DNA of 64,000 nucleotides. Source: Acidilobaceae archaeon (GTDB lineage: Archaea > Thermoproteota > Thermoprotei_A > Sulfolobales > Acidilobaceae). Shown piece after piece: positions 7,928 to 14,746 of the stretch; position 1 is the stretch's first letter; each line of letters opens with the position of its first letter. The notes beneath the pieces were generated by a model that was not told the origin of the DNA, ran no database searches, and saw only the letters and a program-made list of their open reading frames with translations. The stretch covers positions 62,001 to 126,000 of the forward strand of contig JALWPV010000011.1 of NCBI GenBank assembly GCA_027080775.1, in the 5' to 3' direction. The position numbers were made by a program, and so were the translations under genes.

Positions 7928-8040
7928 GCCGCCGTAGCTCAGCGGTAGAGCGCCGGCCTCGTATGGAGCCCCAGGGGCCAGCCCGAAGTCGCCCCCGGGA
8001 GAGCCGGTGGTCGCGGGTTCGAATCCCGCCGGCGGCTCCA
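7928..8040 (+). tRNA. tRNA-Thr (CGT) with a 38-base intron
   Basis: The acceptor stem GCCGCCG/CGGCGGC, the D arm GCTC/GAGC, the T arm with TTCGAAT and an encoded CCA are all present, with U73 as expected for archaeal tRNA-Thr. The anticodon stem CCGGC (7,953-7,957) pairs with GCCGG (8,003-8,007). The loop carries CGT at 7,960-7,962. The best fit places an intron at the standard 37/38 site, about 7,964-8,001. It is GC-rich and can form the usual bulge-helix-bulge. Confidence 0.93.
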
Positions 8041-8197: not shown

Positions 8198-9220
8198 CTA
8201 TTGTTTGGCCAGCGCTGCCTTGGCTGCTTCTCTTAGTTCTATGACGTTTATTGTGGCCTCCACTAGGTCTCTACTGTAGGCTGCTATCCTCCTTATGCTG
8301 TCTAGTATGGCTGTTGCATCGGGTAAGTACGCCGTGGCTAGGATGCTCGCCCGCGCCTTCTCCTCGGCTGCCTTGAAGGTGTCGGTTAGCGTTATCGCCT
8401 TGTAGGCGCTGGCCCTGTCCATCTCGAGGAAGGCTCTCGCTGAGTGGTCGAATATCCCGCGTGCGCTCTCGTATAGTTCTACTAGGTCGTCGCTCACCAC
8501 TGCCTCCCTCCTGGTCTCCTTTAGTATTGAGGATATCATGACTGCGTGGTCCGCCACCCTCTCTATGCTCTTGGCTGCTATGACCTTGTAGAGTATCTCG
8601 GGTAACGATACCACTCCGGCGTCGCTCGGCGCTAGCTCGCCCTGTAGGAGCATGGAGAGCTGCCTCATTATGAGTAGGAAGAACTTGTCTACGACTGTGT
8701 CCCTCTCTATGATGCTCTCCAGGATCGCCTCATCGCCCCTCCGGAGTGCCTGGGAGAGGTTGGCTAGCATGGAGCGTGTCACGCCGACCATGCGCTCGAA
8801 CGCCTTGCCTATGCTTATCGTCGGCGGCCCCGCGAGCGTGTAGAGCACTATCCTCCCGTAATCCTCCTCGAGGACCTCCAGGCCTAGGGCCCTCTTCCTC
8901 GCCTCCTCCACCAGCGCGGCGACCACCCTGGGGTCGGCGTCCCTATACTCCACCTCTATCCTGTTATACCCCGCCAGGTAGGCCGCTAGAACCTCGGTCA
9001 CGAGGAGGTTCAGGGACTCCCCCGTGACCCTGATGACCCTGCCAGCCTCCCTCCTCGAGGCGTCGGCCTGGGGCCTGACTAGGAGGCTGCCATCGGGCAT
9101 CTTCTCTAGGAGGACCTCGGAGCCGGGCTTGAGGCCCCAAGCCAGGGCCCAGTCCTTCGGGAGCGAGACTATGAAGGTAGACCTACCCGTCACCTGGACC
9201 CTGCGCCTCTGGACGGCCAA
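8198..9220 (-). CDS. AbrB-PhoU fusion, predicted phosphate-responsive regulator
   Basis: 340 residues. Residues 1-50 form a SpoVT/AbrB swapped-hairpin DNA-binding domain (GRSTFIVSLPKDWALAWGL). From about residue 120 the chain is a two-repeat PhoU-like helical domain with metal-site-type residues (ERDTVVDKFFLLIMRQ, KSIERVADHAV). Classical PhoU proteins down-regulate Pst transport through PstB and a histidine kinase. Here the DNA-binding domain is fused on, so direct promoter control is plausible. It is the last gene of the pst operon, 41 bases after phoU. It starts at TTG 9,220 after GAGGGA. The domain calls are strong; the regulatory role is inferred. Confidence 0.9.
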   Translation of the reverse strand: MAVQRRRVQVTGRSTFIVSLPKDWALAWGLKPGSEVLLEKMPDGSLLVRPQADASRREAGRVIRVTGESLNLLVTEVLAAYLAGYNRIEVEYRDADPRVVAALVEEARKRALGLEVLEEDYGRIVLYTLAGPPTISIGKAFERMVGVTRSMLANLSQALRRGDEAILESIIERDTVVDKFFLLIMRQLSMLLQGELAPSDAGVVSLPEILYKVIAAKSIERVADHAVMISSILKETRREAVVSDDLVELYESARGIFDHSARAFLEMDRASAYKAITLTDTFKAAEEKARASILATAYLPDATAILDSIRRIAAYSRDLVEATINVIELREAAKAALAKQ

Positions 9221-9261
9221 GCTCCCTCGAGCCCCGTGGCCTCCGGGGGCTCTATTTAGCG

Positions 9262-9888
9262 CTATATAGTCACGCCGGCCTCTCCTATAGCTCTCAGTGT
9301 CTCCCTGGCAATGTATGTGGCGTGGTCGGCCACCCTCTCGAGCTGGCGTAGCACGACTGCCTCCAGCGCCTCGTCCCTCGGGACGCTCTCCCTAGACGCT
9401 ATCCTCTTCAGGCTATGCCTGTAGAGCTCGTCTACCCGCGAGTCCAGCTCCTCGAGGCCCCGGGCCAGCTCCGCCCTCCCGGTTGTGAAGGCCTTGAAGG
9501 CCCTCTCAACCATCTCGCGGGCCCTCCGCGTGGCCTCGAGGGAGGCCTCGCCTAGCCTCGTGTTGGGTGCGAGCTCTAGTGTCATCATTATCTCATTCGC
9601 GTACCTGGTTATCCTGAATAGGTCATAGGAGACCTTAATCATGGACTCGACGTAGAGGAGTATCCTCCCGAGGGGCTGCCATTTGGCTATGAAGAACAGG
9701 GCCTCACTGTATATCGTGTCCTTGAGGTGCTCGGCCAGCGCCGCTAGGGCAGTGAGGTCCCTGGCCCCCGAGGAGCCGGCGAGCGCCGCCTCGACGGCGT
9801 CCATCGCCTCGAGTGAGAGCTTGAAGAGCCTCTGGAGGTTGCCCCTCATGTGCTCGATGTCCTCCTCCCTCGATGTTACCTCCTCCAC
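9262..9888 (-). CDS. phoU: PhoU family phosphate transport regulator
   Basis: 208 residues, an all-helical PhoU protein with the two repeat signatures EELDSRVDELYRHSLKRIA and QLERVADHATYIARETL. It is expected to act on the PstSCAB transporter when phosphate is ample. Its GTG start shares a base with the TAG stop of pstB (TAGTG), so the two are likely translationally coupled. The operon thus holds both a stand-alone PhoU and an AbrB-linked PhoU. Confidence 0.9.
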   Translation of the reverse strand: MEEVTSREEDIEHMRGNLQRLFKLSLEAMDAVEAALAGSSGARDLTALAALAEHLKDTIYSEALFFIAKWQPLGRILLYVESMIKVSYDLFRITRYANEIMMTLELAPNTRLGEASLEATRRAREMVERAFKAFTTGRAELARGLEELDSRVDELYRHSLKRIASRESVPRDEALEAVVLRQLERVADHATYIARETLRAIGEAGVTI

Positions 9889-10649
9889 TACAGCTCGCCC
9901 CTGAAGAACTTCTCTGTTAGGGGGTTACGTGGGTTGAGGGCTACCTCCCTCGAGGGCCCCTGCTCCACCACCCTGCCCCCGTAGAGGAATACTATGTACT
10001 CTGAGACCCTAACGGCCTGGGAGGGCATGTGTGTCACGAACACGGCGGTGAGGCCCTCCTCCCTCACGAGGCCCCTGATGGCCTCCTCTATCTTCACAGC
10101 GTTGACGGGGTCCACATTCGCCGTGGGCTCGTCTAGTAGCAGGATCCTGGGCTTCAGGGCCAGGGCCCTGGCGAGGGATAGCCTCTGCCTCTGACCCCCG
10201 CTCAGCTTCATTGGCGAGGAGTCGAGGCGGTCCTTCACCTCGTCCCATAGCATGGCCTTCTCGAGGGCCCACCTCACTATCTCGTCTAGCTCCCTCTTGG
10301 TCCTCGCGAGGCCGTGGAGCCTCGGGCCTATCGCTACGTTATCGTATATGCTTAGGTGGGGGAAGGGGTTGGGCTCCTGGAAGACCATCGCCACGATCCT
10401 CCTGACCTCGTAGGGCTCCATCTCGTAGACGCTCCTACCGTAGACCCTGACGTCGCCCTCGACCCTGGCCTCCGGGTTGAGGTCGAGGAGCCTGTTTATG
10501 GCCCTCAGGAGGGTCGACTTACCGGTCCCACTAGGCCCCATCACAGCTGTTACCGCTGCCTCGGGGAACCTAACGGTGACCCCCCTCAGGATCTCCTTGC
10601 CCGAGAGCCACACGTGAAGGTCCCGTACCTCGAGTGCGTACGTGGCCAC
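9888..10649 (-). CDS. pstB: Phosphate ABC transporter ATP-binding protein
   Basis: 253 residues from GTG at 10,649, which overlaps the pstA stop as TAGTG. PstB powers phosphate import by PstA/PstC. Walker A GPSGTGKST, the Q-loop in MVFQEPNPFPH, signature LSGGQRQRLSLARAL, Walker B ILLLDEPTANVDP and the switch histidine in FVTHM are all present. The frame is open upstream to 10,817, but that arginine/proline-rich stretch lies inside pstA and does not match the family. Confidence 0.96.
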   Translation of the reverse strand: MATYALEVRDLHVWLSGKEILRGVTVRFPEAAVTAVMGPSGTGKSTLLRAINRLLDLNPEARVEGDVRVYGRSVYEMEPYEVRRIVAMVFQEPNPFPHLSIYDNVAIGPRLHGLARTKRELDEIVRWALEKAMLWDEVKDRLDSSPMKLSGGQRQRLSLARALALKPRILLLDEPTANVDPVNAVKIEEAIRGLVREEGLTAVFVTHMPSQAVRVSEYIVFLYGGRVVEQGPSREVALNPRNPLTEKFFRGEL

Positions 10650-11515
10650 TACATCCTCACCTCCCGGACGATCAGACGGGCTGCTACCATAACAGTCACG
10701 ACTATGAGCATTAGCACGAGGGCGGCGCCCCAGGCCAGCTCCCGGGCTGCCTGGTATGGCATCTGGATGAACTGGTATATCATGAGGGGCACGGCGCCCC
10801 CCTCCCTTAGGAGGCATAGGTGGTAGCCCTCGTAGGCGCCTCCTATTGTGAAGAGTAGAGGCGCCGTCTCCCCGGCGGCCCTGGCCAGGCCTATGAGCAG
10901 GCCAACCAGGATCCCCCTCCTAGCAGCTGGCGCTATGAGGGCGTAGACCGTAGTGGTCCTCGGGGCTCCCATGCTGTAGGCGGCCTCCCTGACACCCTCC
11001 GGCACCTGGCGGAGCGCCTCGCTCGCCTGCACGACAAGGTACGGTAGCACCACTATCGCGAGCGCCGCAGCGCCCGCGAGCATGTTGTACCTGCCGACTA
11101 GGTGGTCTACCAGGACCGCATACACTGTTAGACCCACGAGTATCGTGGGGAACTCAACGAGAGTAAGGGCTAGTAGAAGCGTCGCCCTACTAAGCCTTGA
11201 GCCCCTCAGCTCTGAGATCAGCACGGCGGCGGGCAGCGCTATCAGCGTGGCCCCGGCAGCCGTGAGGGCCGCCAGCTCCAGGGTGCCGAGGAGGGCGGGC
11301 CCTATGCCCCCGGGGTCGCTGGGGTCGAAGGGGTGAGGTGACTCCGTGAGGAACCTGCGGAGCCCTATCCTAGCTATGGCCTCGCCGCCCTTGAGCGCCA
11401 CGAGGTAGAGTATGTGCAGGAGAGGCGCCACAGCGAGGCCCGCTAGCGTGACTAGAACCGCCAGGCCAGCGTAGTTCCACATCTTCCTGGCCAGCATCCT
11501 CCTAGGCCCTCGCAA
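10649..11515 (-). CDS. pstA: Phosphate ABC transporter permease PstA
   Basis: 288 residues with about six membrane helices and the ABC permease EAA loop (VREAAYSMGAPRTTTVYALI) that contacts PstB. It forms the phosphate channel with PstC. The start is either TTG at 11,515, overlapping pstC by 14 bases, or ATG at 11,497, just after AGGAGG. The stop overlaps the pstB start. The family assignment is clear; the exact N-terminus is not. Confidence 0.93.
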   Translation of the reverse strand: MRGPRRMLARKMWNYAGLAVLVTLAGLAVAPLLHILYLVALKGGEAIARIGLRRFLTESPHPFDPSDPGGIGPALLGTLELAALTAAGATLIALPAAVLISELRGSRLSRATLLLALTLVEFPTILVGLTVYAVLVDHLVGRYNMLAGAAALAIVVLPYLVVQASEALRQVPEGVREAAYSMGAPRTTTVYALIAPAARRGILVGLLIGLARAAGETAPLLFTIGGAYEGYHLCLLREGGAVPLMIYQFIQMPYQAARELAWGAALVLMLIVVTVMVAARLIVREVRM

Positions 11516-12485
11516 TCCCCATCCCCTCCTCCCACTTCCTCATGTACCAGACGGCGGCTAGGTTCACGGCCAAGCCTATCGCGAAGATGACCAGGCCCCC
11601 GACGAAGAGGGCGCTCGTCATGTAGTGGTAGAACCCTGCGTTCCCGAACTGCGAGGCTATGAGGCTCGACACCGTCACGCCGGAGTCCGTCACCGAGGGC
11701 GTTATCGTGTAGCCGTTGCCCACAACCAGGCTCACGGCGACGGTCTCGCCTATGGCTCGGGCGAAGGCGAGGGCGAGGCCAGCTACGATGCTGGGCTTCA
11801 CCATGCCCAGCAGGATCCTTATGGCCTCGAATCTCGTGGCTCCTATGGCGTATGCCGCCTCCCTGATGCTGTAGGGTATCATAGAGTAGGACTCCCTTAT
11901 CACAGCGGCGGCGTAGGGGGTACTCATCACAGCTAGCAGGACCCCCGCAGTGGCTATCGTGTAGCCCGAGACGGGGTGCTTCGAGAAGAATGGGAGCCAC
12001 GAGAGGTGCCTGCTTAGCCAGGCCAGGACGGGGTACATATGGGGGGCGAGGTATGCCAGCCCCCAGAGCCCGTAGATTATCGTAGGCGTCGCCGCCATGA
12101 GGTCGGTTAGCATTGCGAGGGCGCCCCGGAGCCTGGGCGGCGTCAGCTCTTCGAGTACCACTGCCAGGGAGACGGCCAGGGGGGCCGCGAGTAGCACAGC
12201 TATAACGCTGGTGTAGAGGCTCCCGAATATCGCTGGCGCAAGGCCGTACCACTCCCTCGAGGGGGCTCCCTCGACTGCCTGCCAGGCGGAGTCTGTGAAC
12301 ACGTGCAGGCCTTCCCGCCTCAGGATAGGGATTGAGTAGGCCGTGAACACCGCTAGCATCGAGAGTATTACGAGTAATAACAGCAGCGACGCCGGTAGGT
12401 GTAGGAGCACGAACCTCTCGTCGTCCTTGCTCCTGAGCCCTCCGAGGCCTAGGATGCGCTGGAGCCTCCTATCCACCGGCCCCAC
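11502..12485 (-). CDS. pstC: Phosphate ABC transporter permease PstC
   Basis: 327 residues, or 324 if GTG at 12,476 (after GGGGTGGGG) is the true start. It has six predicted membrane segments, a large loop between the first two, and the EAA motif IREAAYAIGATRFEAIRILL. It pairs with PstA to form the inner-membrane channel. The gene overlaps pstS by up to 17 bases and pstA by 14, so the operon is tightly packed. Confidence 0.93.
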   Translation of the reverse strand: MGPVDRRLQRILGLGGLRSKDDERFVLLHLPASLLLLLVILSMLAVFTAYSIPILRREGLHVFTDSAWQAVEGAPSREWYGLAPAIFGSLYTSVIAVLLAAPLAVSLAVVLEELTPPRLRGALAMLTDLMAATPTIIYGLWGLAYLAPHMYPVLAWLSRHLSWLPFFSKHPVSGYTIATAGVLLAVMSTPYAAAVIRESYSMIPYSIREAAYAIGATRFEAIRILLGMVKPSIVAGLALAFARAIGETVAVSLVVGNGYTITPSVTDSGVTVSSLIASQFGNAGFYHYMTSALFVGGLVIFAIGLAVNLAAVWYMRKWEEGMGIARA

Positions 12486-13590
12486 CCCCGCACTCGATGA
12501 GCTTTGAAGCGTTGAGCGCTACCTCCCTGAGCTGGGGTGGGAGTGGCGCGTACCCCGTGGGCACGTGCTCCTGGCCGGGTCCTGCTATGTACTCTATGAA
12601 GCTCCGGAGCGCCTCGCACTTGGCCTTGTCGGGTTGGATGCGCCATAGGATCATGAATGTCTGCCCAACTATCGGGTAGGCCTTCGGGGTTGAGTTGGAG
12701 TAGATGGCTTCGTACACGTAGGTGGACCAGTCGCCCAGGGGTGAGGGGGCGGGCCTGCCGGTGTAGGCGGCCTCTACGGACTCCCTGGTGGGGGCGACGA
12801 ATGCCCCGTACGGGTTCTCGATGCGGGCTATAGGTAGCCCTCTGCTCAGGGCGTAGGACCACTCGATATAGCCTATGGAGTAGGGGGTGTGCTGTATGGC
12901 GTTGGCGACGCCCGGGTTACCCTGCTCGCCCAGCCCCCTGCCCGTGGCGTCGACTGGCCACGAGACGACCTTGCCCACCAGGCTCTCGGGCCAGAGGCCC
13001 CCACTGGCCTTGTAGAGGAACGTGGTGAATATCTGGGTCGTACCGCTGGCGTCGCTCCTGTGGACAGCTATGATGGGCTTATGGGGTAGCCTCGATGCGA
13101 CCGCTGGGTTCAACTCCTTTATGCGAGGATCGTCCCAGTACACTATCCTGCCTAGGTAGATGCCAGCTAGGATCCTCGCTGAGAGGTTCAGCTGGGCCGA
13201 GCCTATCTCCGGCACGTTGTAGGTCACAACGATGGCTCCGAGTATAACGGGGAACTGGAGGATCCTCCCCCGATAAGCCTGGAGGGCACTCCTCTTCAGG
13301 GGTGGATCGCTGCACGCGAAGTCCACCTTACCGCCCAGTATATCCTCTTGGCCCTTGCCACTACCGCCACCCACATAGTTGACACTCACGCCCGGGTGAC
13401 TTTCCTGGAAGCCCCTAATCCAGGCAACCATCGCTGGCTCGACGAATGTTGACCCGCTTCCGAAGAGGACTACACTCCTCTCCACCCTACAGGCGACGGC
13501 GCCAGCCGCTAGGGTGGCGAGTAAGACGAGGAGGGCGGCTGCGAGCCATCGCTGCATGCCTAGTAGCCTCTGCATTCCCGCGGCTCCCAC
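12469..13590 (-). CDS. pstS: Phosphate-binding protein PstS
   Basis: 373 residues. An N-terminal signal sequence or anchor (about residues 13-35, WLAAALLVLLATLAAGAVAC) precedes a periplasmic-binding fold. The phosphate-binding segments FGSGSTFVEPAM, GGGSGKGQEDIL and HRSDASGTTQIF match PstS. The protein should capture phosphate outside the cell and deliver it to PstCA. It is the first gene of the operon and follows a 166-base promoter region with an inverted repeat. Start options are GTG 13,590 and ATG 13,575. Confidence 0.94.
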   Translation of the reverse strand: MGAAGMQRLLGMQRWLAAALLVLLATLAAGAVACRVERSVVLFGSGSTFVEPAMVAWIRGFQESHPGVSVNYVGGGSGKGQEDILGGKVDFACSDPPLKRSALQAYRGRILQFPVILGAIVVTYNVPEIGSAQLNLSARILAGIYLGRIVYWDDPRIKELNPAVASRLPHKPIIAVHRSDASGTTQIFTTFLYKASGGLWPESLVGKVVSWPVDATGRGLGEQGNPGVANAIQHTPYSIGYIEWSYALSRGLPIARIENPYGAFVAPTRESVEAAYTGRPAPSPLGDWSTYVYEAIYSNSTPKAYPIVGQTFMILWRIQPDKAKCEALRSFIEYIAGPGQEHVPTGYAPLPPQLREVALNASKLIECGGGAGG

Positions 13591-13652
13591 GGGAAGGCCT
13601 AGTCCATGACTTCTAATGCATTCACAATAGAGGATATTGAGTCGTGCCTACG

Positions 13653-13680
13653 CTATATACCACTCTAGGGAGGTATATAG
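13653..13680 (-). promoter_or_regulatory. pst promoter with a perfect 9-base inverted repeat (candidate operator)
   Basis: CTATATACC (13,653-13,661) and GGTATATAG (13,672-13,680) are exact reverse complements separated by 10 bases. The half-sites include TATA-like sequence, and the repeat lies about 63-90 bases upstream of the pstS start. A dimer bound here would block TBP. The AbrB-PhoU protein of the same operon is the obvious candidate ligand, by inference. Confidence 0.6.
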
Positions 13681-13756: not shown

Positions 13757-13868
13757 TGGTGGGCCCGCGGGGATTTGAACCCCGGACCACGGGGTCCCGA
13801 GTCGGGCGCTGGCCCCCTCCTCGGGGCCCGGCGTACCCCGCATCCTAGCCAGGCTAGACGACGGGCCC
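13757..13868 (-). tRNA. tRNA-Pro (CGG) with a 34-base intron
   Basis: Acceptor GGGCCCG/CGGGCCC, A73 and encoded CCA. The anticodon stem CGGGG (13,840-13,836) pairs with CCCCG (13,794-13,790), and the seven-base loop CTCGGGA gives anticodon CGG. The intron therefore sits before the anticodon, at 31/32 or 32/33 (about 13,802-13,835), not at the usual 37/38 site. A TATA-like GGTTAAAACC lies about 30 bases upstream. Confidence 0.9.
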
Positions 13869-13993: not shown

Positions 13994-14746
13994 TTGGCTG
14001 AGCCTGCAGGATTAGGCTTCGCCGATGACTATGTAGTCTACTACATAGCCAGGAGAATGGCAGGCGACATAGTGTTATCCCATGACACCGGGTCTGCCCT
14101 GAGGAAGTGGAGGGAGTACTTCGGGGTAACGCAGAGCAGGCTGGCTAGGAGCATGGGAATATCGACTAGTGTCATAAGCGACTACGAGAAGGGCAGGAGG
14201 CTCCCGGGCGCGAGGTTTATTCAGAGGTTCGTTAGGACGCTCATAGAGATAGACCTTCAAGCTGGCGGCCACCGCATAAGGAGGCTTGCTAGGAGCATCG
14301 GCGCGCCTCCGGGGGCCGTTATTGATATGAGGGAGTTCGAGAGGCCGCTCAGCATAAGCGAGCTGGCGGAGGCGGTGAGGGGAACCATACTGGCGCCCGA
14401 GTTCCCCGTAGAGAGGCGGGTCTACGGCTACACCGTGGTGGACAGTATCAAGGCCATAATAAGCCTGTCGGGCGTCCAGTTCTACAGCCTCTTAGGCTCC
14501 ACTGTTGATAGGGCGATAGTCTTCACGGGGGTCCGCCTAGGCCGCAGCCCCCTCGTGGCCGTGAGGGTCTCACCAGTGAAGCCCAGCGTGGTAGTCATAC
14601 ACGGGCCTCGGGGCCACGTTGACCCCCTGGCCATAGAGCTGGCGAAGCTCGAGGGTGTACCCCTCATACTGAGCTTAGCTAGGAGTGTAGACGAGCTTGT
14701 GGCATCGCTACGCGCCGCTGCCCATGGAGCCGAGCCTGTCTCCTAG
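13994..14746 (+). CDS. Predicted transcriptional regulator with XRE-type HTH (COG1709-like)
   Basis: 250 residues from TTG at 13,994. Residues about 35-70 form an XRE-like helix-turn-helix (TQSRLARSMGISTSVISDYE). The C-terminal half (about 140-240) is an alpha/beta domain with ISLSGVQFYSLLGSTVDRAIVF, characteristic of an archaeal group of predicted regulators that pair HTH with a possible ligand-binding domain. The ligand is unknown. It is monocistronic, with a palindrome upstream, and converges on nac. Confidence 0.83.
   Translation: MAEPAGLGFADDYVVYYIARRMAGDIVLSHDTGSALRKWREYFGVTQSRLARSMGISTSVISDYEKGRRLPGARFIQRFVRTLIEIDLQAGGHRIRRLARSIGAPPGAVIDMREFERPLSISELAEAVRGTILAPEFPVERRVYGYTVVDSIKAIISLSGVQFYSLLGSTVDRAIVFTGVRLGRSPLVAVRVSPVKPSVVVIHGPRGHVDPLAIELAKLEGVPLILSLARSVDELVASLRAAAHGAEPVS

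Follow-up and report, generated by a model that had tools for sequence, protein, structure and literature searches.

In archaea lacking the bacterial PhoR-PhoB system, the control of phosphate uptake is largely open outside the haloarchaea. Proteins that fuse an AbrB DNA-binding domain to PhoU (AbrB-PhoU) form an already known family, annotated as phosphate uptake regulators, and the related haloarchaeal protein (Haloferax PhoU2/HVO_2374) adjoins pst, phn, or phosphatase genes. Pho-boxes at haloarchaeal pst promoters are reported in a passage of PMC6560208 that cites Furtwangler 2010 on H. salinarum, and this published pho-box may correspond to the (S)TATATA(S) element discussed below. A SpoVT/AbrB plus PhoU protein of Thermococcus kodakarensis, TK2245, is listed among chromosome-associated proteins in a passage of PMC7325993 that gives no target or function for it. 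Sso7c4 of Sulfolobus (PMC5222340), crystallised with a CCTATATAGG oligonucleotide, is an AbrB-type archaeal DNA-binding dimer without a PhoU domain, and is treated as a chromosomal protein. The pst genes of M. mazei are induced by starvation (PMC6864096), with a box not mentioned there. Here we describe the pst operon of an Acidilobaceae archaeon, its abrB-phoU gene, and the palindromic boxes before both, within a window of 64,000 nucleotides (assembly GCA_027080775.1, contig JALWPV010000011.1, positions 62,001 to 126,000); coordinates are those of the window.

Comparison of this locus with its counterparts across archaea leads us to propose, with a probability of roughly 0.8, that AbrB-PhoU, whose family is widespread in archaea, is a one-component DNA-binding Pho regulator that binds phased CTATATAG boxes. 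The operon is a single tight run of minus-strand genes from 13590 to 8198, in the order pstS-pstC-pstA-pstB-phoU-abrB-phoU, with all six genes backed by Pfam and NCBIfam domain searches (Table 1). The complete PstSCAB importer, the stand-alone PhoU, and the fusion named in a preliminary description of this DNA are thus all present, the four Pst subunits and PhoU lying within the one operon. The same importer, a stand-alone PhoU, and a repeated operator before pst are found in the bacterial PhoR-PhoB regulon; here, however, a sensor kinase and a response regulator are lacking, PhoU itself carries the DNA-binding domain, and an 8-bp palindrome serves as the putative operator. The absence of two-component proteins, claimed earlier for the window, reaches beyond it, since neither Response_reg nor HisKA gave a match across the whole genome (1.78 Mb, 99.9% complete), with both detected in 12 of 14 reference genomes used as controls. 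Both halves of a bacterial-type PhoR-PhoB pair are therefore missing, and, in contrast to the haloarchaeal cases, AbrB-PhoU occurs here in a crenarchaeal lineage whose genome contains neither HisKA nor Response_reg proteins. The regulon had been called self-contained, which fits it only in part: the family of the fusion is widespread and carries the annotation given above.

The preliminary description further envisaged a one-component switch acting through a perfect 9-base inverted repeat with a 10-base gap in the pstS promoter. This repeat is present as CTATATACC-N10-GGTATATAG at 13653-13680, is matched nowhere else in the window when as many as three mismatches are allowed (0.03 expected), and has a general form, STATATA-N11..15-TATATAS, that occurs once in the 1.78-Mb genome. 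Eight perfect inverted repeats with arms of at least 9 bp are contained in the window, and the 9-bp repeat, taken alone, is only modest evidence against chance; its meaning derives from the AT-rich arms, located in a promoter within DNA of 61% G+C, and from the comparative data. The repeat resolves into two 8-bp palindromic boxes of consensus CTATATAG, arranged as CTATATAC-N12-GTATATAG and 20 bp apart, and a second pair, CTATATAG-CG-CTAAATAG, overlooked previously, directly precedes abrB-phoU at 9252-9269 with a spacing of 10 bp. In the sister species the distal arm of the pstS repeat is mismatched (CTATATGC) and the spacer is 1 nt shorter, giving a spacing of 19 bp, not 20. Among the four closest pst promoters the distal arm is common only to the sister species, with only the proximal TATATAG retained beyond the nearest species, and with single 8-bp boxes kept in other genera. 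The perfect 9-bp repeat was therefore rejected as the conserved unit, and conservation indicates that the recognised unit is the 8-bp palindrome CTATATAG in helically phased arrays rather than one 9-bp inverted repeat. Of the switch as first envisaged, a one-component regulator working via the repeat is supported, the box being found at pstS and abrB-phoU promoters across archaea, with the repeat now read as a pair of boxes.

Within the family, 48 genomes were sampled, 26 of which carry PstS homologues, the named close relatives being Acidilobaceae, Thermodiscus, and Aeropyrum metagenome-assembled genomes. When all 256 palindromic 8-mers were ranked over the 250 bp upstream of pstS and abrB-phoU, CTATATAG came first, with 36 occurrences observed against 0.69 expected, often twice and ~10 bp apart. 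It occurs in 29 of 54 target upstream regions compared with 7 of 472 others (p ~2e-26, a value inflated by the partial double-counting of related species and divergent gene pairs, which leaves the rank unaffected). Three of these seven lie on loci fetched for the motif and one belongs to a pstS read with an extended N-terminus, which puts the true background below 7/472. A search of relatives for the pst-upstream repeat, as recommended in the earlier work, thus recovers the 8-bp box, which recurs above background at the promoters of both phosphate importers and the regulator.

The core of the box, TATATA, resembles a TATA element, and the proximal box of the window could occupy the TATA position relative to a conserved CTCTATT block. 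It is nevertheless improbable that CTATATAG is a TATA box or basal promoter element and the repeat two close TATA-like sequences, as only 1.5-5% of the other promoters at these loci have CTATATAG, and as TATATATA and TTTATAAA show no comparable enrichment in either the family or the wider archaeal sets. Moreover, the boxes are grouped into phased pairs and triples, and separate TATA-like elements, assigned by eye, are present in Haloferax, Nitrososphaeria, and Methanosarcina. The view of the box as TATA only was rejected on these promoter controls and on phasing.

The enrichment was replicated on named abrB-phoU loci from across Archaea, a set in which the crenarchaeal group shares genomes with the family sample and the other groups do not. 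Before abrB-phoU, CTATATAG again ranks first in Nitrososphaeria-like (12 observed against 0.35 expected), Methanosarcina-type (5 against 0.04), crenarchaeal (10 against 0.37), and remaining archaeal genomes (9 against 0.17). In total, 32 of 79 abrB-phoU upstream regions carry it, compared with 20 of 588 other genes of the same loci, many of these 20 being pstS or DUF47/PhoU_div genes, i.e. phosphate uptake. In haloarchaeal plasmids, whose proteins of this kind bear the name "phosphate uptake regulator PhoU" and are encoded next to pst, phn, and phosphatase genes, the core TATATA is the top palindromic 6-mer (12 against 0.4 expected). The pstS of Natronomonas pharaonis is preceded by GTATATAG-AT-GTATATAG, and STATATAS-NN-STATATAS is found at five places in 119 Halobacteriota genomes, four of which are pstS or abrB-phoU promoters. 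The box also lies upstream of DUF47 genes, and a tandem box lies before transporters of the major facilitator superfamily (L263:1501-1518 and L265:1501-1518; two genera of one family within the same order). These transporters are PHO84-like, with TIGR00887 (phosphate:H+ symporter) as their best NCBIfam match, below the cut-off, and both genomes also carry AbrB-PhoU.

From these comparisons, CTATATAG in 10-bp-phased arrays, read by AbrB-PhoU, is probably an ancient operator across much of Archaea (Thermoproteota, including Nitrososphaeria-like lineages and Bathyarchaeia, Halobacteriota, and Thermoplasmata-like lineages) that would control several unrelated importers (Pst, the DUF47-linked system, and the PHO84-like transporters) together with the regulator, and would be a counterpart of the PhoB box without a two-component system. 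The open literature covered, which did not include the key H. salinarum paper, gave no description of CTATATAG as an archaeal Pho box, and the archaea-wide box appears to be undescribed there.

Where several boxes occur together they are helically phased, with inter-box distances clustering at 9-10, 18-22, 29-31, 38-43, and 51-52 bp, and with a period of ~10.3 bp (Rayleigh p ~1e-7; 0 of 5000 permutations as strong). A perfect box is followed by a second ATAG after 9-10 bp in 15 of 56 cases, and only rarely at other offsets. The second box is usually degenerate, with the exact tandem CTATATAGN{1,11}CTATATAG giving no match in eight Methanosarcina, Nitrososphaerales, and other genomes. Phasing also bears on whether the inverted repeat might be an RNA hairpin, serving as the terminator of an upstream tRNA or as a leader structure, rather than a protein site. 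The repeat does lie near where a tRNA-like gene has its 3' end, but the conserved unit is each 8-bp palindrome and not a two-arm stem, the spacing follows 10-bp steps, and many promoters have a single box, making a hairpin extremely improbable. Rfam gave no family match at 13653-13680, on which ground the repeat was rejected as an RNA element.

Genetic linkage, a near-invariant recognition segment, and co-variation point to AbrB-PhoU as the putative reader of the CTATATAG boxes. The abrB-phoU gene, the last of the pst operon here and likewise linked in many relatives, adjoins or diverges from pst in many genera. The AbrB recognition segment, R-x-x-Q-x-x-G-x-S (R6, Q9, G12, P21, W24), is nearly invariant across archaea, and two independent orthologues in which it is changed have no box even at one mismatch, compared with at least one box in 56 of 64 others. 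Similarly, perfect boxes accompany none of eight loop-altered paralogues, including three others in this genome, compared with 33 of 66. A different reader, such as the helix-turn-helix (HTH) protein encoded at 13994-14746 divergently from pstS, is unlikely. This HTH_3 protein retains its position near pstS in two congeners (L081, L082), but tblastn detected no copy of its gene next to pst in the other box-carrying genera of the family, in many of which AbrB-PhoU is near or divergent, and the box also precedes abrB-phoU genes unlinked to pst.

Besides the inflated p value, several observations weigh against AbrB-PhoU and its boxes forming such a system. About half of the target promoters are without a perfect box, and in a wider tandem search of Thermoproteota just 4 of 21 fetched loci were at pst or abrB-phoU, with many inside genes. 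Furthermore, the co-variation of loop and box consists of few cases with exceptions, L267 and L280 having altered loops yet keeping the box; because of these two, we regard co-variation as supporting, not decisive.

In the fusion, an AbrB/MazE-like DNA-binding domain (residues 8-50) is followed by an alpha/beta domain (60-128) and then by a complete PhoU of six helices (137-339). The second half of this PhoU is not seen by Pfam but is visible in an AlphaFold2 model with a predicted local distance difference test score (pLDDT) of 89.7. The PDB matches of this model are the PhoU structures 1t72 (E 8.5e-5), 4q25, and 2i0m. Invariant acidic residues and an ER-x-x-D motif (E220, R221, D224, D318, E321) resemble the known metal-binding pattern of PhoU. 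The middle domain (residues ~60-128; 8837-9043) has no Pfam match; its element order, beta-alpha-beta-alpha-beta-beta, is that of the IF3-C, Alba, or SepF folds, with weak scores, and no such fold is claimed because the best E value is just 7e-3. Three further AbrB-type proteins related to AbrB-PhoU are encoded in the same genome (G000:C27:12113, C44:10768, and C28:48079; L108-L110), with a different recognition loop, RLGxSSL, and without a perfect Pho box.

In the proposed mechanism, an AbrB dimer would recognise the palindrome CTATATAG, with its core TATATA, at two or more boxes that share one face of the helix, at spacings of 10 or 20 bp, and are probably bound cooperatively. The pair at 13653-13680 would control the pst operon, and through the pair at 9252-9269 AbrB-PhoU would control its own expression. 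The PhoU part is likely to be sensory, responding to phosphate or to the state of the transporter via PstB, the stand-alone PhoU, or a bound metal. We infer this signal, and likewise the sign of regulation: where an importer promoter has its box upstream of TATA, activation under starvation is more likely than repression, and with the box over the start site, as at Methanosarcina abrB-phoU, repression is more likely.

At Haloferax pstS the box is followed after ~80 bp by a separate TTATAAA, and in Nitrososphaeria after ~25 bp by a TATA-like element; at Methanosarcina abrB-phoU the order is reversed, and the box, ~18 bp beyond TTTATATAT, would cover the start site, making this the only one of these lineages with the box at the position of a start-site repressor. 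As lineages differ in where the box stands with respect to TATA, a block of TATA-binding protein (TBP) binding, previously suggested as the mode of action of the fusion, is not supported as a rule. That the fusion represses pstS by blocking TBP when phosphate is plentiful is a tentative alternative, consistent with the proximal box of the window, which may overlap or adjoin the TATA region, and with the repressor position in Methanosarcina. The upstream positions in Haloferax and Nitrososphaeria argue against such a repressor, as does the passage of PMC6560208 reporting the H. salinarum pho-boxes as essential for up-regulation. On these same two grounds we favour activation of pst under starvation, at about even odds and as somewhat likelier than a TBP block, and autorepression may operate at abrB-phoU in some lineages.

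The recurring box suggests a route of phosphate control in archaea without bacterial-type phosphate sensors. If the proposal is true, it would provide one handle on phosphate control for ammonia-oxidising archaea, methanogens, haloarchaea, and hyperthermophiles, Pho regulons would be predictable from genomes alone, and PhoU itself would be the link from sensor to DNA rather than an accessory of a kinase.

In its own genome, searched by pattern only, CTATATAG has 30 sites, of which abrB-phoU is the only convincing target besides a few weak cases, and a larger regulon was rejected as most of the sites lie inside genes. One weak case is CTATATAC-CCC-CTATATAG upstream of a zinc alcohol-dehydrogenase-type gene (G000:C32:72261; L218:1562). 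Elsewhere, two congeners have CTATATAG-NN-CTATATAG ahead of a conserved PIG-L deacetylase/GT2 gene pair (L068:5791-5808 and L069:5960-5977), a possible regulon member, and a perfect box lies between divergent genes at three Nitrososphaeria-type loci (L203:11158, L206:10793, and L211:11184), those of L203 being of the histidine-phosphatase and thymidylate-kinase families. A triple CTATATAG in exact 10-bp steps at L247:1501-1528 may belong to a small gene or RNA, as no open reading frame (ORF) of at least 80 aa has its start in the next 250 bp to either side.

Table 1. Genes of the pst operon and associated Pho-like boxes, in window coordinates.
Feature	Position	Strand	Evidence or remark
pstS, phosphate-binding protein	12469-13590	-	TIGR00975 316 bits, PF12849
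pstC, permease	11502-12485	-	TIGR02138 259.5 bits, above cut-off
pstA, permease	10649-11515	-	TIGR00974 192.8 bits, just below cut-off of 193.45
pstB, ATPase	9888-10649	-	NF010860/TIGR00972 best matches
Stand-alone PhoU, 208 aa	9262-9888	-	PF01895 62.9 bits; TIGR02135 across residues 9-198
AbrB-PhoU fusion, 340 aa	8198-9220	-	PF04014 47.8 bits (cut-off 24.7), PF01895 59.6 bits
Distal Pho-like box at pstS, CTATATAC on minus strand	13673-13680		20 bp from proximal box
Proximal Pho-like box at pstS, GTATATAG on minus strand	13653-13660		TATATAG invariant in 4 closest pst promoters
Perfect box CTATATAG	9262-9269		Overlaps 3' end of phoU, 41 bp before abrB-phoU start
Second box before abrB-phoU, CTAAATAG	9252-9259		10 bp from first box

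Whilst PstB and PstA fall below equivalog cut-offs, their best-matching families are the correct ones. The start of pstS is GTG as called, with an ATG at ~13573 likelier and one at ~13554 also possible. The pstB ORF reaching to 10817 is over-extended, as the profile starts at residue 59-62 of the long ORF, and the GTG at 10649 fits the start of the family.

Near the operon, an Rfam tRNA of 110 bases lies on the plus strand at 7928-8037 and was missed by ARAGORN, apparently owing to an insert. A palindrome, CTATGTAG-TCTA-CTACATAG, lies at 14029-14048, immediately within the HTH gene at its start. In the interval separating pstS from that gene, the minus strand carries a probable intron-containing tRNA at 13758-13868 (GGGCCCG...CGGGCCCACCA), which was missed by ARAGORN and scores under the Rfam threshold, and which is kept in L006 and L031.

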